From Candidatus Terryibacteriota bacterium (GTDB lineage Bacteria > Patescibacteriota > Minisyncoccia > UBA9983), in NCBI GenBank assembly GCA_016208535.1, contig JACQXW010000006.1, positions 1 to 39,071 on the forward strand: a DNA stretch of 39,071 nt, in the 5' to 3' direction. Below, in pieces: positions 1,555 to 26,231 of the stretch. The notes beneath the pieces were generated by a model. That model was not told the origin of the DNA. It saw only the letters and a program-made list of their open reading frames with translations, and made no database searches. Position numbers and translations under genes: made by a program. Numbering within the stretch: the stretch's first letter is position 1; the number at the start of each line of letters is the position of its first letter.

Positions 1555-3597
1555 TTATTCTAGAGACAATATAATAAAAACACCTTTAAAAGTCAAGGAA
1601 AGTGAAAAAATTAGAAAATTATCTCTTCCCTCTAAAATTATTGTTTCTGCGGGGCGGACGGTCGCCGTTTCTGTCCCTTCCATTGCCTCGCTGGTCAAGT
1701 TCTGGTTTGTAGTCCAGATTGGCTTGTTTGAGAGATAAATCGCCGCGCTTGTGTCCTTATGATTTTTGCCGGTGATGAAAACCGAACCGTCCTGCTCAAT
1801 GTCAATTTCTGCGCCGGTTTTTTCTGTAATGCTTTTTATCATTTTTCCTCCAGGGCCGATAACCGCTCCGATCTTGTCTGAATCAATCATAATTTTCACA
1901 ATTCTTGGAGCAAAAACGGAAAGCTCTTTGCGCGGTTCTGGAATTTCTTTGAGCATCGCCTCCATAATCTCCATTCTCGCCTTTTTGGCTTGCGCCAAAG
2001 TTTTTTCCAAAATCTCAACAGAAACACCATCAACTTTTACATCCATTTGAATGGCAGTGATGCCGTTTTTTGTGCCCGCGCATTTAAAATCCATATCGCC
2101 ATGATGATCCTCCGGCCCCTGAATATCAGTCAAAATCTTATACTGCTGTCGGCTGTCAGCTGTCAGCTGTTGGCTCATTATGAGTCCCATGGCAATGCCG
2201 GCCACTGGTTCTTTTATGGGCACGCCTGCGTCCATTAAGGCCAAAGTTGAGGCGCAAACCGAACCCTGCGAGGTGGAGCCGTTTGAAGCCATTGATTCTG
2301 AAACAATTCTGATGGTGTATGGAAACTCCTCGCGCGAAGGAATGACAGGAAGCAATGCCTTTTCCACCAAGGCGCCGTGGCCGATCTCGCGCCTGCCCGG
2401 ACCGCCCATCCTGCCTGTTTCGCCGGTGGAAAACGGAGGAAAATTATAATGGTGCATAAAATGCTTTTCTGTCTGCACCTCCATTCCCTCAATAAGCTGA
2501 ACATCTTTTGGTCCGCCAAGAGTCAAAATGGAAAGAACATGGGTTCCACCTCTGTAAAAAATTCCTGAGCCGTGCAAAACCGGCAATATTCCGGCCCTGG
2601 CGTATAAAGATCTGATCTCGTCAATTTTTCTTCCATCCGGCCTTTTTTCTTCGCCAGCCGGCGAATCCAAAATTTCTTTGTGAATTATGTCATTAATTCT
2701 GTTTTCAAAATGGTCGTCAGCCAAAAACGCGTTTTCCTCGCCGAATTTTTCCATGGCAATTTTCATCCAAAGCGTTTTTGCCTCGCCAATTTCCTCTTTT
2801 GCTCCTGAAAAAATCGCCCTTTCCGCGCTTTCCAGTGCATTCTTATCAAAAAAGCCCTTCATCTCAGCCGGCTCTTCTTTAATCTCAGGAATAATTTTTT
2901 TCTTGCCAATATCAGCAATTATTTCTTCCTGGAATTTTTGGATTTTTGCGATTTCATCAGCCGCTTTTTCCAGCGCCTTTACTACTGTGTCCTCTGGAAT
3001 TTCAAACGCGCCCGCTTCAATCATATTTATTTTTCCATCCTTTCCGCAAGCAACAATGTCCAATAAACTTTTCTTGCGTTCCTCAAAAGTCGGGTTGACG
3101 AGAAAATTATTTCCGCCAGCTGGCGGAACAAGTCCGATTCTCACTGCCCCAACCGGGCCACTCCAGGGAATATCGGAAATGGCGAGCGCCAAAGAACCTG
3201 CCAATATTGCCGGCACATCTGAATCGTTTTCTCTGTCAACAGCAAGAGCAAGAACCGTAACCTGTATCTCGTTGCGGATGCGGCTGTCAAACAAAGGCCG
3301 AATGGTGCGGTCAATCGCCCTGCCGGTCAAAATCGCCTCTTCCGACGGTCTGCCCTCCCTTCTCATAAAACGGCTGCCCAAAATCTGGCCAGCGGCGTAA
3401 AATTTTTCTTCATAATCAACAGTCAAAGGCAAATAATCTATGCCTTCGCGCCTGTTTTTTGACATAACAGATGTGGCAAAAACCGCTGTTTCGCCATAAC
3501 GGACAAGTACAGAGCCGTTGGCCTGGTCTGCCAAATCGGAGATTTCCACGGAAAGCTTCTTTCCGCCAAAATCAGTTTCATATGTTTTTGTTTGCAT
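1555..3597 (-). CDS. pnp: Polyribonucleotide nucleotidyltransferase (PNPase); S1 domain apparently deleted and C-terminus frameshifted
   Basis: RNase PH-like domains and a KH domain (IGAVIGPGGKMIKSITEKTGAEIDIEQDGSVFITG). No S1 domain follows. Likely start is MQTKTYE, not the ORF start at 3654. Confidence 0.93.
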   Translation of the reverse strand: MQTKTYETDFGGKKLSVEISDLADQANGSVLVRYGETAVFATSVMSKNRREGIDYLPLTVDYEEKFYAAGQILGSRFMRREGRPSEEAILTGRAIDRTIRPLFDSRIRNEIQVTVLALAVDRENDSDVPAILAGSLALAISDIPWSGPVGAVRIGLVPPAGGNNFLVNPTFEERKKSLLDIVACGKDGKINMIEAGAFEIPEDTVVKALEKAADEIAKIQKFQEEIIADIGKKKIIPEIKEEPAEMKGFFDKNALESAERAIFSGAKEEIGEAKTLWMKIAMEKFGEENAFLADDHFENRINDIIHKEILDSPAGEEKRPDGRKIDEIRSLYARAGILPVLHGSGIFYRGGTHVLSILTLGGPKDVQLIEGMEVQTEKHFMHHYNFPPFSTGETGRMGGPGRREIGHGALVEKALLPVIPSREEFPYTIRIVSESMASNGSTSQGSVCASTLALMDAGVPIKEPVAGIAMGLIMSQQLTADSRQQYKILTDIQGPEDHHGDMDFKCAGTKNGITAIQMDVKVDGVSVEILEKTLAQAKKARMEIMEAMLKEIPEPRKELSVFAPRIVKIMIDSDKIGAVIGPGGKMIKSITEKTGAEIDIEQDGSVFITGKNHKDTSAAIYLSNKPIWTTNQNLTSEAMEGTETATVRPAETIILEGRDNFLIFSLSLTFKGVFIILSLE

Positions 3598-4833: not shown

Positions 4834-5745
4834 ATGTTGTGCGACATAAAAACTTTACATAAGCAATTTCTTGAATATCTTGAAATTGAAAAAGGGAGGA
4901 GCTTGAAGACGGTTGAAAATTACGACCGCGATTTGCGAAAGTTTTTTGAATTTTCCAAAATTAAGACGCCTGATGAAATCACTGACGAATCTGTCCGTAA
5001 TTTTCGTCTTTGGCTCAACAGAAAGGAATTAAAGAAAAAAACGCAGAATTATTATTTGATAAGTTTGCGGGTATTCTTAAAATATCTTGCAAAAATGGGG
5101 ATAAAATCTCTGCCAGTTGAAAGGATTGAACTGGCTAAGATACCTCAAAGAGAACTTGACCTTATTACTGAGGAAGAACTTTCCAGATTATTAGACGCAC
5201 CAAAGGGCGGTCCGCCAGCTGGCGAATTAAAGACCTCGCGCGACAAAGCCATTCTGGAATTATTATTTTCCACTGGCTTGCGCGTTTCAGAATTATGCTC
5301 TCTGAATCGCGACCACATCACAGACGCTCGGGCTGGCGAGTTTTCCGTGCGCGGAAAAGGCGATAAAATAAGGGTAGTTTTTCTATCAGACAGCGCCCAA
5401 AAAGCCATTAAAGATTATTTAAATAAAAGGACGGATACTGAAGAGGCGCTTTTTGTGTCAATTTCCAATTCCCAATTTCCAATTTCCAATAATCGTCTCA
5501 CTCGGCGCTCAATCGAACGAATCGTAAAACATTATGCCCTTAAGGCCGGCATTGCCAAAAAAGTGACACCCCATGTCCTCCGCCACTGCTTTGCCACAGA
5601 TTTGCTTTCCAACGGCGCCGACCTGCGCTCTGTCCAATCCCTGCTCGGCCACGCCTCCATCACCACCACGCAGATATATACCCATATTACAGATAAACAA
5701 TTAAGAGAAGTGCATAAAACGTTCCATAATAAACGAAGAAAATAA
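4834..5745 (+). CDS. Tyrosine recombinase, XerC/XerD family
   Basis: N-terminal SAM-like domain; catalytic HVLRHCFATDLLSNGADLRSVQSLLGHASITTTQIYTH. Confidence 0.95.
   Translation: MLCDIKTLHKQFLEYLEIEKGRSLKTVENYDRDLRKFFEFSKIKTPDEITDESVRNFRLWLNRKELKKKTQNYYLISLRVFLKYLAKMGIKSLPVERIELAKIPQRELDLITEEELSRLLDAPKGGPPAGELKTSRDKAILELLFSTGLRVSELCSLNRDHITDARAGEFSVRGKGDKIRVVFLSDSAQKAIKDYLNKRTDTEEALFVSISNSQFPISNNRLTRRSIERIVKHYALKAGIAKKVTPHVLRHCFATDLLSNGADLRSVQSLLGHASITTTQIYTHITDKQLREVHKTFHNKRRK
5211..5226. repeat. In-frame palindrome (TCCGCCAGCTGGCGAA) inside xer
   Basis: CGCCAGCTGGCG core, encodes GPPAGE. Core shared with pnp and cca sites. Confidence 0.7.
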
Positions 5746-5746
5746 A

Positions 5747-7231
5747 TTACTTCACATACCACTTCTTTCTGATCTCTTCTATTTCCTTTTTCTCCACCTC
5801 CTCCTTTGTTTCCTTCGCTTTTTTACCTAATTTCTCCATTTCTTTTTCTGGCAAAGCATTGAGTTCTTTTGCCCTCTTTTCAAGCCATTCTTCGGTATTT
5901 CTTGCAGGTTCGTCCAGTACTTCCTCAAGCAAAATATGCAGAATCTGGCCGATTTTTGGCCCTGGTTTCACGTGCAACAATTCTATAATTTTATTGCCGT
6001 CAATTTTGAGCATGCCAACAGAAAGCGGCTGCCGCAATGCCTCATCTATCATTGATTCATATTTGCGCAACCGATAAGGCGTTTCCTTTGGTTTGCCCAT
6101 GCCGATTCTGTCGCTAAATCTTACCTTCATTAAATCCCAGACATTTTCCGGCCCCACATTGCGCACAGTCCGGCGCACAGCAGAAAGAGTAATTTTCTCT
6201 GTATCTGAGAAAAACATATGATAGCGGATAAGTTTTGCCACCAGTTCAATGGTTTTTTTAGAAAATTTAAGCCGAGACAAAGCTCTTATCGCCATTTTGG
6301 CGCCAATTATCTCGTGGCCATAAAAGGTATAATCTTTTTTTTCTTTGCTCCATTGCCGAGAGGCGGGCTTGCCAACATCATGCAAAAGCGAAGCAATCCT
6401 TACCTCCAGAGGCCAGTTCTTGTCAGCTGCATGATCCAAAGCCTTCAAATTATGCTCCCAAACCGGGTATAAATGATCTTTGTTCTGTTTGACGCCATAC
6501 CCCTCTTCTAATTCCGGCAGAATATATTTCAACACCCCAAATTCCCGCATCATTTCAAAACCAATACTTGGCCTATCGGACATTATAATTTTAATAAATT
6601 CGTCTCTAATCCTCTCTTTGGAAATCATTTCCAAAAGATGCGCCTGTTTTTTAATGGCCTCTTGTGTTTCACGTGCAACCTTCCAGCCCAATTCTGCGGC
6701 AAAACGAATAGCCCTTATAATCCGCAAGGCATCTTCATCAAATCTCTCCTTTGGATTACCTACTGTCCGAATGATTTTGTCCTTTATGTCCTTTTGGCCA
6801 TTAAATAAATCAATTAACTTATTATCCATCCCTTCGACTACGCTCAGGGCAAGAGCATTTATCGTAAAATCCCGCCTCTTTAAGTCATCTTCAATGTTTC
6901 TCGTGAAACGAACCTCGTCCGGGTGCCGCTTGTCAGAATATTTTGCCTCCAGACGATAAGGGGTTATTTCAATAATTTTTAAACTCGGGTCATCAGCATC
7001 AGTAATAACTGCCACTGTGCCGAATTTGTTTTCATAAACTGTTTTTGGAAATAATTTCTGGATTTCCTCTGGTTTGGCATTAGTGGTAATGTCCCAATCT
7101 TTGGGTCCGCCAGCTGGCGGATTTTCCATCAATAAATCGCGCACGCAACCGCCAACCAAATAGGTCTCAAAACCGGCGTCTTTTAAAACTTGCGCTGTTT
7201 TAGAAATTATTTCAGGAATTTTAAAATCCAT
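5747..7231 (-). CDS. cca: CCA-adding / polyA polymerase family nucleotidyltransferase with HD domain
   Basis: YLVGGCVRDLLM, DWDITTNAKPEEI, RRDFTINALAL, HDVGKP motifs; charged coiled-coil C-terminus. Confidence 0.93.
   Translation of the reverse strand: MDFKIPEIISKTAQVLKDAGFETYLVGGCVRDLLMENPPAGGPKDWDITTNAKPEEIQKLFPKTVYENKFGTVAVITDADDPSLKIIEITPYRLEAKYSDKRHPDEVRFTRNIEDDLKRRDFTINALALSVVEGMDNKLIDLFNGQKDIKDKIIRTVGNPKERFDEDALRIIRAIRFAAELGWKVARETQEAIKKQAHLLEMISKERIRDEFIKIIMSDRPSIGFEMMREFGVLKYILPELEEGYGVKQNKDHLYPVWEHNLKALDHAADKNWPLEVRIASLLHDVGKPASRQWSKEKKDYTFYGHEIIGAKMAIRALSRLKFSKKTIELVAKLIRYHMFFSDTEKITLSAVRRTVRNVGPENVWDLMKVRFSDRIGMGKPKETPYRLRKYESMIDEALRQPLSVGMLKIDGNKIIELLHVKPGPKIGQILHILLEEVLDEPARNTEEWLEKRAKELNALPEKEMEKLGKKAKETKEEVEKKEIEEIRKKWYVK
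6832..6855. repeat. In-frame CTTCGACTACGCTCAGGG-type repeat inside cca
   Basis: CCCTTCGACTACGCTCAGGGCAAG encodes ALSVVEG. A related repeat lies at about 27102 in tsaE. Confidence 0.6.
7106..7121. repeat. In-frame palindrome TCCGCCAGCTGGCGGA inside cca
   Basis: Perfect 16-bp palindrome encoding PPAGG. Confidence 0.75.
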
Positions 7232-10935: not shown

Positions 10936-12516
10936 ATGAAATACAAACCCGTGGTTTTAATCATCCTTGATGGATTCGGGATTTCGCCGGACAAAATTGG
11001 CTCGCCGTGGGAGATTGTTGAGAGAAAAACTTTTCATGATATAGAAAAATTTTATCCCTTTACCGCCATCCAGGCCTCAGGCATTGCCGTGGGCCTGCCC
11101 TGGGGCGAGGCAGGGAACAGCGAGGTTGGACACCTCACCATTGGCGCCGGCAAAATCATTTATAATTATCTGCCAAAAATTTCCACTGCCATTACCGACG
11201 GCTCGTTTTTTAAGAATGATGCTTTTCTCAGGGCGATTGAACACGTAAAAAAAAATAATAGTTCCCTCCATCTTTCCGGACTTTTTTCCTCAGGCACGGT
11301 TCACGCCTATTTCGAGCATCTTTACGCCCTCTTGGATCTGGCCAAACAAAATGAAGTAAAAAATGTCTATCTCCATCTCTACACTGACGGCAAAGACGCC
11401 TACAAAAAAGAGGGGATGAAATTCTATAAAGATTTTGAGCAAAATCTCAAAAAAAATTATCCCAACGCAAAAATCGCCTCCATCATCGGCAGGAATTTCA
11501 GTATGGACAGAGATAATAATTGGAATAAAACAGCCAGAGCTTACAATCTTTTTGTAAATGGAGAGGGAGAGGAATTTGAATGTGTTTCCGATTATATTGC
11601 CAGCCAGTATAAAAAAGAAATTTTTGACCCAAATATCGAGCCCGCCTTCGCTAAAGCTACTGCGGGCAAGCCCGGTATTATTAAAGACAATGATGCTCTA
11701 ATTTTTTTCAATTTCCGCGAGGATAGCATGAGGCAATTAACCAGGGCTTTTGTCAGCAAAGATTTTTCCCATTTTCCACGCAAGAGCATCAATAATCTCT
11801 TGGTTGTCACCATGACTGAATATGACAAAAATATTCCCTGTTTAACCGCCTTTAAATCAGCAGAAGTAGAAGAACCCTTAGCCAGAATTATTGCGGAAAA
11901 CGGCCTTAAACAGCTTCATATTGCTGAATCAGAAAAATACGCCCATGTCACTTATTTTTTGAATGGCGGCAGAGAAACTTCGTTTGAAGGTGAGGAAAGA
12001 ATCCTGGTGAAGTCCCCGGAAACTCCTTCCTATGCCTTAGTGCCGGAAATGTCTGCGGAAAAAGTGACTGAGGCTGTTTTGGACAATCTTGAAAAATACG
12101 ACTTCATTGTCGTTAATTTTGCCAATGCCGACATGGTGGGCCACACAGGGAAATTCGAGCCCACAGCCAAGGCCATTGAGACAATTGACAGATGTCTGGG
12201 AAAAATAATCCCTGCGGTTTTAAAGATAAACGGAGTGATGGTCATCACCGCTGACCATGGCAATGCCGAAGAAAAAATTTACAAAATCACGGGCGAGGAA
12301 AAATCAAAACACTCCATCAACCCTGTGCCCCTTTATCTCATTGCCACTGATTTTAAAAGAAAAAAGGAGGAAACAGAAAAGGAAATCATTGACGATTACA
12401 AAGACATCAAAGGAACCCTCTCTGACGTGGCTCCGACAATTTTGGAATTACTCGGCCTAAAAAAACCGGCCTCTATGACTGGTAAAAACCTGTTAGAAAA
12501 ATTACTTAGTTCTTAA
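10936..12516 (+). CDS. gpmI: 2,3-bisphosphoglycerate-independent phosphoglycerate mutase
   Basis: [60 protein letters not shown]. Confidence 0.96.
11641..11675. repeat. In-frame palindromic insert inside gpmI
   Basis: CCCGCCTTCGCTAAAGCTACTGCGGGC encodes [11 protein letters not shown]. Confidence 0.65.
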
Positions 12517-15070: not shown

Positions 15071-15475
15071 TTATAGTATTTTCGTCTTTTTTAATGATTC
15101 TTGCAATACCTTTCCCAATTCATGAAAGGTGAGTTTTTCACTGCCGGATTTAAAGAAAATTATCGCGCCAAGACCGGATTTGATTTTTGGAAGCAGTTTT
15201 TTAATAATATGTCTGGCTCTTTTTTTAAGTTTATTCCGAATAACCGATTTTTTTGAAACCTTTTGAGATGCCACAAAAGCAAACAAACTGATTGGTGTGG
15301 ACCCCGTTAGAGACAGGCTCTCTTTGAGAGCCGACGGATTTCGAAGAAATCCTGTCTCTAACGGGGTGGACAAAGAAGCAATCCTTAAAGAGAGATATTT
15401 AAAAGGAAAAGTTTTTCCTTTTTTAAAAATTTCTTCAAATAAAACCTTGTTAATTCTGTGTTTTTTAGGAAGCAT
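15071..15475 (-). CDS. rnpA: Ribonuclease P protein component, with internal palindromic insert
   Basis: MLPKKHRINKVLFEEIFKKGKTF ... FAFVASQKVSKKSVIRNKLKKRARHI. Insert STPLETGFLRNPSALKESLSLTGST lies between conserved blocks. Confidence 0.92.
   Translation of the reverse strand: MLPKKHRINKVLFEEIFKKGKTFPFKYLSLRIASLSTPLETGFLRNPSALKESLSLTGSTPISLFAFVASQKVSKKSVIRNKLKKRARHIIKKLLPKIKSGLGAIIFFKSGSEKLTFHELGKVLQESLKKTKIL
15301..15367. repeat. Three-stem palindromic element inside rnpA
   Basis: ACCCCGTTAGAGACAGG / CCTGTCTCTAACGGGGT (17-bp arms) enclosing GGCTCTC-ttt-GAGAGCC and GGATTTC-gaa-GAAATCC. Confidence 0.92.
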
Positions 15476-15524: not shown

Positions 15525-15612
15525 TTCTATCCACAGATTATTAACATAAGTATAAAGGTTTTGTTAGTTTAGTAATTAGTAATTAGTAATTAGTAATTAG
15601 TATAATCAGGTT
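15525..15612. promoter_or_regulatory. dnaA upstream region: DnaA-box-like site and tandem repeat, probable part of oriC
   Basis: TATCCACAG near 15529; four tandem AGTAATT units at about 15571-15600. Confidence 0.6.
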
Positions 15613-16977: not shown

Positions 16978-17115
16978 CTAATTAATAAATAATCCATAAA
17001 TTATCCACATTACTAATTACTGATTACTAATTACTGATTACTTAAAATTAACTTATCAACATATTAACAGAGTAAATAATAAAAATAAAAAATTATTAAT
17101 TAATATATTATTATT
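16978..17115. promoter_or_regulatory. Probable oriC (dnaA-dnaN intergenic)
   Basis: TTATCCACA and TTATCAACA boxes, tandem TTACTGATTACTAATTACTGATTACTT, then an AT-rich stretch. Confidence 0.7.
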
Positions 17116-18493: not shown

Positions 18494-20643
18494 TACCCAT
18501 TTTCTTTTGCCCATTTTGCGACCGGCCATTCCCAAAGCGAAAATTGGGAATCATGTTCCGGATTTTGCGGCTGGGGACCAAGAGGGTTATCTTTGTTCAG
18601 CCAATAGAGAATTTCGTGGATTTGAGGGGTGTCAGCCAAAGGCTGACCAGCCTCGGGCTGGGTGGTTGAAGTTGAGGTTGCCTGTGCCAGCCAGTCTCCT
18701 GCCAAAATCGGCTTTGGTTCAGGCAGGGGAATCGGCTTTTCAAAATTTTCAACTGGCAGTTTTTTAAAAACCTCTGTCAAAAAAGCATTCCATAAGGGAG
18801 CGGCGATAAAGCCAGCCACTTTTTTCTCCATTGGCGTGTTGTCATTATTCCCAGCCCACACCCCCACAGCCAGATTTGGCGTATAGCCCATTACCCAGGC
18901 GTCGCGGTAATTGTTGGTGGTGCCGGTTTTCACCGCCACTGGCCGGTCTGAAAAATAAAGCCAGGACATCTGCCCAAATGCCGGCGCCCTTGCCTCATTA
19001 TCAGTGAGAATATCGGAAATCAAAAGGCTGATGTTTTTATCAATAACCTGCTGGGGAGAGGAGGCAAATTTTTCCAAAGTTTTTCCGTTTCTGTCCTCAA
19101 TTTTTAAAATGCCGGTCACAGGATTTCTCGCCCCGTTATTGGCAAAGACCGCATAGGCGCCGGTTAATTCTAAAGGAGTGACTTCGCCTCCGCCCAAGAC
19201 TAAAGTGAGGCCGTACCTGTCAGGGTCGGTTAAAGAGGTGATGCCCATGTCTCTAGTGGTTTGTAGAGAATCTCTTAGCCCGGCCAGATAAAGAACTTTT
19301 ACTGAGGGGATGTTGATGGATTGGGCCAGGGCATTGCGCAAACTAACCGGGCCGCGAGTTAGGTTGTCATAATTCTCCGGCATATAGCAATCTTCCGGTT
19401 TTACGCCTGGTTGGGGAGTGCCGTCAGGATTGCAAGAGGCGTTGAATTCTGTCAGCAGATCAAAAACAACAGTATTGGGTGTGTATCCTTTTTTAAAGGC
19501 AGTGGCATAGACAAAGGGCTTGATACTGGAACCGGGCTGGCGGTGCGCCAAGGTGATATTAAAATTTCCCTCTTCCTCCACATTAAAATAATTTTTTGAG
19601 CCGACCATGGCAAGAATCTGGCCGGTTTTTGGGTCAATGGCCACCAAACCGGCGTTTGAGGCGTTGAATTTTTCCTTGTTCTCCTTGGCGAATTTTAGCA
19701 CCAGTTCTTCCGCTATTTGTTGGAGATTATAATCCAAGGAGGTGGCAACTCTAAGCCCGTCTTCCTCTATCGCGTCTTTGCCGTATTTTTTCTCCAGATA
19801 AGACCTGATAAAGATTGAGAAATGAGGGGCCTTGAGAGAATTGTCAGCCTTGCTGACAAATTTAACTTTTTCTTTTTTTGCCTTTTCTGCTTCTTCTTGC
19901 GCGACAAATCCCAATTCAGCCATTCTGCTTAAAACCAAATTTTTCCGCTCCTCAAGTTCGTTCCGATGTTCTCCATAGGGAGAGTAATAAGTCGGCGCCT
20001 TGGCTAGGCTGGCAAGATAGGCGGATTCTACCAAAGTCAGCTGACGGGCCGGTTTGTTGAAAAAATTCTGACTGGCCGCCTCAATGCCGTAACTGCTGCC
20101 GCCATAGGGGATTTCATTCAAGTAAAGATTTAAAATTTCCTCTTTGGGAAGCATTTTTTCTATTTTGACAGCCAAGATGAGTTCTTTTATTTTTCTTTCA
20201 ATACTTTTCTCTCTGGTGAAAAACGTGTTTTTGACCAATTGCTGGGTGATGGTGGAGCCGCCCTGTTTTGCGCTGCCGGTGATGAAATCAACAAAGAGGG
20301 CGCGCATTATTGCTCGCAGATCAACTCCCTTGTGCTGGTAAAAAGAGGAATCTTCAATGGCCACGGTGGCGTTTTTGATGTGCCTGGAGATTTGGTCAAA
20401 AGGCGCCACTGTGCGCTGGATGTTTTGATGGATGTCCCATAATAAAATTTTTCCGGTGCGGTCATAGATTTTCGTGGATTCAATCACCTTTCGCTCATTG
20501 AAAGATTGGAGGTCGGGAATTTTCAGATTGCTTGCCCATGTGGCAATAATAAGCGTTCCCAAAGCCACCCCTGCCACGCAAAGCGCCGTCAGGCTGTAAA
20601 AAATCCGAGCAGTCCGCCAACCGGCGGATTTTCTTTTTCTCAT
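18490..20643 (-). CDS. Penicillin-binding protein 1A (glycosyltransferase + transpeptidase)
   Basis: AIEDSSFYQHKGVDLRAIMRA, GGSTITQQLVKNTFF, QPGSSIKPFVYATA, VKTGTTNNYRDAWVMGYTPNLAVGVW. Confidence 0.97.
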   Translation of the reverse strand: MRKRKSAGWRTARIFYSLTALCVAGVALGTLIIATWASNLKIPDLQSFNERKVIESTKIYDRTGKILLWDIHQNIQRTVAPFDQISRHIKNATVAIEDSSFYQHKGVDLRAIMRALFVDFITGSAKQGGSTITQQLVKNTFFTREKSIERKIKELILAVKIEKMLPKEEILNLYLNEIPYGGSSYGIEAASQNFFNKPARQLTLVESAYLASLAKAPTYYSPYGEHRNELEERKNLVLSRMAELGFVAQEEAEKAKKEKVKFVSKADNSLKAPHFSIFIRSYLEKKYGKDAIEEDGLRVATSLDYNLQQIAEELVLKFAKENKEKFNASNAGLVAIDPKTGQILAMVGSKNYFNVEEEGNFNITLAHRQPGSSIKPFVYATAFKKGYTPNTVVFDLLTEFNASCNPDGTPQPGVKPEDCYMPENYDNLTRGPVSLRNALAQSINIPSVKVLYLAGLRDSLQTTRDMGITSLTDPDRYGLTLVLGGGEVTPLELTGAYAVFANNGARNPVTGILKIEDRNGKTLEKFASSPQQVIDKNISLLISDILTDNEARAPAFGQMSWLYFSDRPVAVKTGTTNNYRDAWVMGYTPNLAVGVWAGNNDNTPMEKKVAGFIAAPLWNAFLTEVFKKLPVENFEKPIPLPEPKPILAGDWLAQATSTSTTQPEAGQPLADTPQIHEILYWLNKDNPLGPQPQNPEHDSQFSLWEWPVAKWAKENGY

Positions 20644-26168: not shown

Positions 26169-26231
26169 ATCCCGTTAGAAATTTTTTGTAAACATCTTTA
26201 ATCTAAAATAATCACATATTTCTAACGGGAT
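26169..26231. repeat. Inverted repeat ATCCCGTTAGAAAT ... ATTTCTAACGGGAT upstream of pilB
   Basis: 14-bp perfect arms at 26169-26182 and 26218-26231; core CCCGTTAGA shared with the rnpA element. Confidence 0.85.

Follow-up and report, generated by a model that had tools for sequence, protein, structure and literature searches.

The gene for the RNase P protein of this Candidatus Terryibacteriota bacterium contains a palindrome that is read through in frame. This raises the question of what the palindrome is and how it came to lie in an essential gene. The window, that is the whole stretch of DNA analysed, is 39,071 nucleotides long, and the features relevant to this question are as follows.

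15071-15475, minus strand: rnpA (RNase P protein), identified by a PF00825 match and by alignment with relatives in the family
15302-15366, no strand assigned: 65 bp palindromic element CCCCGTTAGA...TCTAACGGGG in rnpA, with boundaries set by the 4 bp duplication and the family ends
15298-15301, no strand assigned: left target duplication, TGGA
15367-15370, no strand assigned: right target duplication, TGGA
15316-15332, no strand assigned: inner hairpin 1, GGCTCTC-TTT-GAGAGCC, from sequence and fold
15336-15352, no strand assigned: inner hairpin 2, GGATTTC-GAA-GAAATCC, from sequence and fold
26170-26230, no strand assigned: second family element in the window, 61 bp, with TIR half-sites at 26171 and 26221

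An earlier note on this DNA had described a palindrome at 15301-15367 inside rnpA, with 17 bp arms and two 7 bp hairpins, and the sequence confirms this. The arms, ACCCCGTTAGAGACAGG (15301-15317) and CCTGTCTCTAACGGGGT (15351-15367), are perfectly complementary over 17 bp each, and both inner hairpins have perfect 7 bp stems. As the outer GG/CC pairs of the hairpins overlap the inner ends of the arms, formation of both hairpins leaves an outer stem of 14 bp (15302-15315 with 15353-15366). The note was also right that the palindrome is read through in frame and adds about 23 residues, but its 67 bp boundary does not hold. A TGGA duplication that had been overlooked includes the A and T at the outer ends of the arms, and the element is therefore 65 bp. 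Together with 4 bp of duplication the insertion amounts to 69 bp, exactly 23 codons, and the rnpA reading frame on the minus strand is uninterrupted across it. The gene has 134 codons with the insert and 111, an ordinary length for RnpA, when the flanks are joined.

An rnpA gene was found in all 11 genomes of the order. In the comparison of relatives, nine were counted (L070 was left out), and in all nine, read in the right frame, the insertion site corresponds to a short loop of variable length that has no insert. The palindrome is thus absent from the RnpA of these relatives, and the alignment contains no homologous non-palindromic segment at this position. The variation in loop length suggests that the insert sits in a surface-exposed loop, and the modified RnpA is presumably made and functional. 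A structure of RnpA predicted by AlphaFold from the single sequence had a mean pLDDT of 43.5, too low for use, and a PDB search with RnpA found no match at E<0.01.

Elsewhere in the window, gpmI includes an in-frame, GC-rich segment of 10 residues (11644-11673) with GCCCGC/GCGGGC inverted ends, which occurs once in the genome and has the appearance of a further small in-frame insertion. A different short palindrome, TCCGCCAGCTGGCGGA with its variants, is present in four copies (3111-3132, 5210-5231, 7105-7126 and 20612-20633). Tandem repeats of AATTAGTAATTAGT flank dnaA on both sides in inverted orientation (15571-15606 and 17000-17059), and are possibly related to the origin.

A search of the source genome with the 67-mer, as the earlier note had proposed, revealed one further copy, 87 % identical over 67 bp. 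The palindrome belongs to a larger family defined by its ends, (Y)CCCGTTAGA...TCTAACGGG(R). The half-site CCCGTTAGA occurs at 55 places in the genome, and these form 27 inverted pairs and one orphan. All 27 pairs are no more than 320 bp apart, with elements ranging from 27 bp to 312 bp. A perfect 4 bp duplication was present in 15 of the 23 copies recovered with flanks. The second element in the window, between two minus-strand genes, has a non-foldback interior and no clean duplication. Recognizable coding content is confined to four copies of 278-312 bp, each with a GIY-YIG protein; two are intact and two are broken by a nested palindrome. No TIR pairs more than 320 bp apart and no transposase-size coding element with the family ends were found in the genome. 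Exact occurrences of the 15-mer CCTGTCTCTAACGGG in this genome are limited to both arms of the rnpA palindrome and the right end of each of the four GIY-YIG elements, which at the level of sequence is a direct link between palindrome and elements.

The palindrome in the broken GIY-YIG elements, CCACGTTAGA...TCTAACGTGG, is at the same site in both (L005 1501-1812 and L008 1501-1812; G000, C3 and C28). Two 60 bp copies (L230 and L242; G000, C3 and C7) are flanked by duplications of TATAA, apparently -10 promoter boxes (TATAAT).

BLAST searches with the 67-mer against the remaining genomes of the order found no match. As only the ends and the architecture, and not the 67-mer sequence, are common across the order, pattern searches were needed. 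The short form, with ends 30-60 bp apart, was found in 124 of 384 genomes of the class, and the reversed-pattern control gave none. This, together with the 87 % copy in the source genome, shows that the rnpA palindrome is not a chance structure. The long form, with ends 250-280 bp apart (268-298 bp when given as TIR pairs), was found in 43 of the 384 genomes, again with none in the control, and nearly all examples include GIY-YIG. The two forms occur together, with the short form present in 33 of the 43 genomes that have the long form and in 91 of the remaining 341 (odds ratio 9, p = 2e-10). Similarly, a strong GIY-YIG match (E at most 1e-15) was found in 13 of 19 genomes rich in the short form compared with 5 of 20 free of it (p = 0.01), and one rich genome, G333, had no GIY-YIG match.

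A scan of one genome per species found at least 115 stretches with the family pattern. Among the matches listed most are from Patescibacteria, and Omnitrophota, Phycisphaerae, Cloacimonadota, Nitrospirae, KSB1, WOR-3, Bacteroidetes and others are also represented; some of the matches outside the Patescibacteria may be binning errors. The short form is also on 12 viral contigs. Empty sites are illustrated by a copy in G163. BLAST showed that in its congeners G334 and G273 the two flanks are contiguous, with no gap at the point of insertion; a third congener, G069, has an insertion at the same place.

Exact 4 bp duplications were found outside the (Y)CCCG...CGGG(R) ends in 126 of 254 distinct pairs, compared with a mean of 14.6 and a maximum of 27 when the right flanks were shuffled; about half of the family copies have no clean duplication. 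The duplicated 4-mer is YNNR, with T (88 %) or C (12 %) as the first base and A or G as the last. TGAA, TAAA and TCAA, counted on either strand, are the most common. What the targets have in common is YNNR alone; TNNA and ATGAR are favoured, and there is no single conserved long site. In nearly all copies the terminal Y and R are complementary to each other, and in 97 of 123 the pair matches a base adjoining the duplication on one side or both, suggesting that the target may serve as the template for the last base pair.

The rnpA palindrome thus has structural features of a MITE, namely TIRs, a target duplication, multiple dispersed copies, empty sites in the family and a coding partner with the same ends. 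Our preferred reading, to which we assign a probability of about 0.8, is that it is a non-autonomous, MITE-like copy of a GIY-YIG insertion element family with shared TIRs and YNNR duplications. The identification of the rnpA element itself is strong.

The full members of the family are 270-310 bp, typically about 280 bp, and contain a single gene for a GIY-YIG nuclease of about 86 aa. The set of coding copies examined comprised 36 elements with a clear GIY-YIG match, of which 31 are intact and 20 have a duplication. Their placement relative to host genes is distinctive. In 26 of the 36 a host ORF with the same orientation begins, with its start codon, directly after the element, and no antisense case was seen (0/36); 2 % of random positions are at a start codon that opens at least 60 codons. 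In 23 of the 36 the stop codon of the nuclease gene is within the duplication, one base past the right end (CTA ACG GGA TGA), and consequently overlaps the start codon of the host gene (ATGA). In 13 of the 36, the open frame of the nuclease reaches back to the upstream copy of the duplicated host start. As a 284 bp insert within a gene would shift the frame, the placement at start codons must partly reflect survival.

The protein matches PF01541, and the Y, YG, R, E and N positions are conserved. The nearest PDB entry is UPF0213 protein BH0048 (1zg2). Homologues found by the protein alone that have the family ends are in Omnitrophota and Phycisphaerae, and other homologues found in this way have different long TIRs. 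In one protein clade the ends are of the CCAGGWAGT type and TATG duplications lie exactly at start codons. A Cloacimonadota genome with two GIY-YIG elements of a second TIR type had no passive copies of that type. In a strict automatic test, a TIR and duplication were detected in 7 of 54 protein-found loci, indicating that many GIY-YIG homologues are not, or are no longer, in TIR elements. The GIY-YIG genes at L254, L257, L258 and L265, in non-CPR genomes, are flanked by tRNA-gene-like sequence that is partly repeated on both sides, and these are perhaps a tRNA-targeting relative.

The association suggests that the GIY-YIG protein would be the mobilizing enzyme, and both this role and the cutting chemistry are inferred from sequence. 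To our knowledge, characterized GIY-YIG enzymes act as nucleases in homing, restriction or repair and not as transposases. Hence, it could be argued that an unrelated transposase moves these ends in trans and that the GIY-YIG gene is merely captured cargo. The many homologues outside TIR elements are in keeping with this proposal, as is the fact that 4 bp target duplications are common among DDE elements. However, the genome contains no other type of coding member with these ends, and TIR pairs more than 320 bp apart have duplications in only 2 of 36 cases across genomes. In addition, the TIR sequence follows the GIY-YIG clade, with 5 changes compared with 24.5 in shuffled sets, in a set that was fetched in part by TIR. 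We consider a transposase acting in trans unlikely.

Among the short, passive copies, about one-fifth of 172 distinct elements fold more strongly than their interior shuffles (z below -2), and most of the strong folders have the three-stem layout of the rnpA copy. In an alignment of 13 elements belonging to one sub-type, 97 % of cells are paired and 14 pairs have changed on both sides; 57 cells have changed on both sides, compared with 17.5 in shuffles. The stems vary and the shape is kept, which indicates either selection on the folded shape or copying of the arms from each other. This covariation, and the strong three-stem fold of the rnpA copy, would suit selection for a functional RNA structure, or for a regulatory hairpin, in rnpA. 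However, the palindrome is missing from the rnpA genes of relatives and is bounded by a target duplication, elements of the same kind are found in unrelated places, and no Rfam family matches the rnpA element. This explanation is extremely improbable.

Consistent with genes being avoided, 26 % of the short copies are within ORFs compared with 67 % of random positions. Of those that are inside ORFs and have duplications, 21 of 22 add a multiple of three bases, a figure that is partly built in because the ORF test favours in-phase insertions. Outside ORFs the lengths are even across the three phases.

The earlier note had likened the palindrome to Rickettsia palindromic elements. A review of MITEs (PMC10969869) describes them as IS derivatives, and the Rickettsia elements as in-frame palindromes. 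The likeness holds for behaviour, as both are palindromes within genes that are read through in frame, in this case in an essential gene. It probably does not extend to identity. The Rickettsia elements, compared by description only, are approximately 150 bp, and no coding partner is mentioned in the passages of that review considered here. Although an in-frame palindrome in a housekeeping gene is what that source reports for them, the ends, size, duplications and coding members tie the rnpA element to a CPR-centred, MITE-like family, and it is very unlikely that a Rickettsia palindromic element or a close relative of one spread to the source bacterium.

Bacterial IS MITEs, as described in the same review (PMC10969869), are likewise short and multi-copy, with TIRs, target duplications, no gene and ends common to a coding element; they differ in having partners of approximately 800-2000 bp with recognized transposases, where the partner here is approximately 280 bp and encodes only GIY-YIG. 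DDE and HUH ISs differ in that no transposase-size coding element with the family ends was found in the genome. REP/REPIN sequences and the associated RAYT (Y1) also combine foldback DNA with a gene for a small single-domain nuclease (PMC2817692, PMC3116915). REPs have GTAG or CGTC tags and use HUH chemistry (in part from PMC3733652), whereas the rnpA family has TIRs with CCCGTTAGA ends, 4 bp duplications and GIY-YIG, rather than a tag at one end and no duplication. A further parallel is provided by a 2024 study of CPR rRNA genes (PMC11270868). It reported insertions with GIY-YIG genes that differ from introns and are not explained by homing, along with short insertions (<200 bp) lacking an ORF, and left their origin open. 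By description, the combination of coding and ORF-less insertions is the same. A conserved rRNA motif scan of our loci gave one match to a 16S start and no further support for copies in rRNA genes.

UPF0213/YhbQ-like proteins (PDB 1zg2) and GIY-YIG homing endonucleases share the PF01541 domain with the nuclease, and we know of none that is located between inverted repeats with target duplications. Homing endonuclease elements also differ in having one conserved long target, where the targets here have only YNNR in common. We found no description of GIY-YIG elements with TIRs and target duplications in the open-access literature, and the family is widespread and apparently undescribed.

We propose that the GIY-YIG nuclease would recognize the ends common to the full elements and the passive palindromes, and would make a staggered, 4-base cut at a YNNR target, with gap repair leaving the 4 bp duplication. 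Against this, known GIY-YIG cuts leave short 3' overhangs. Full elements would survive mostly where they had landed on a start codon. There the host start signal could drive the nuclease gene, and the duplicated target would supply the nuclease stop (GGA TGA), overlapping the regenerated host start (ATGA). Passive copies would survive at start codons, between genes, or within genes if the element and duplication together are a multiple of three, and the insert in rnpA would be tolerated in a loop of naturally variable length. It is fairly probable that these full elements represent a new class of autonomous transposon of approximately 280 bp, perhaps the smallest known, with a GIY-YIG nuclease as the sole enzyme. 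It would insert at start codons, borrowing the host translation start and returning a working start codon, and would have seeded CPR and other phyla with passive palindromes, some of which are read through in essential proteins.

The transposition chemistries known to us are DDE, HUH, serine and tyrosine. If GIY-YIG mobilizes these elements, this would be a chemistry outside those four, in an element with one gene of 86 residues. It would account for the abundance of small GIY-YIG genes and of short palindromes among CPR genomes, and the insertions in CPR rRNA genes, both GIY-YIG-coding and ORF-less (PMC11270868), may have the same explanation. Insertion at start codons with an ATGA overlap would be a striking way of inserting while leaving the target gene intact. 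The rnpA copy indicates that passive copies can add new peptide segments to essential proteins.
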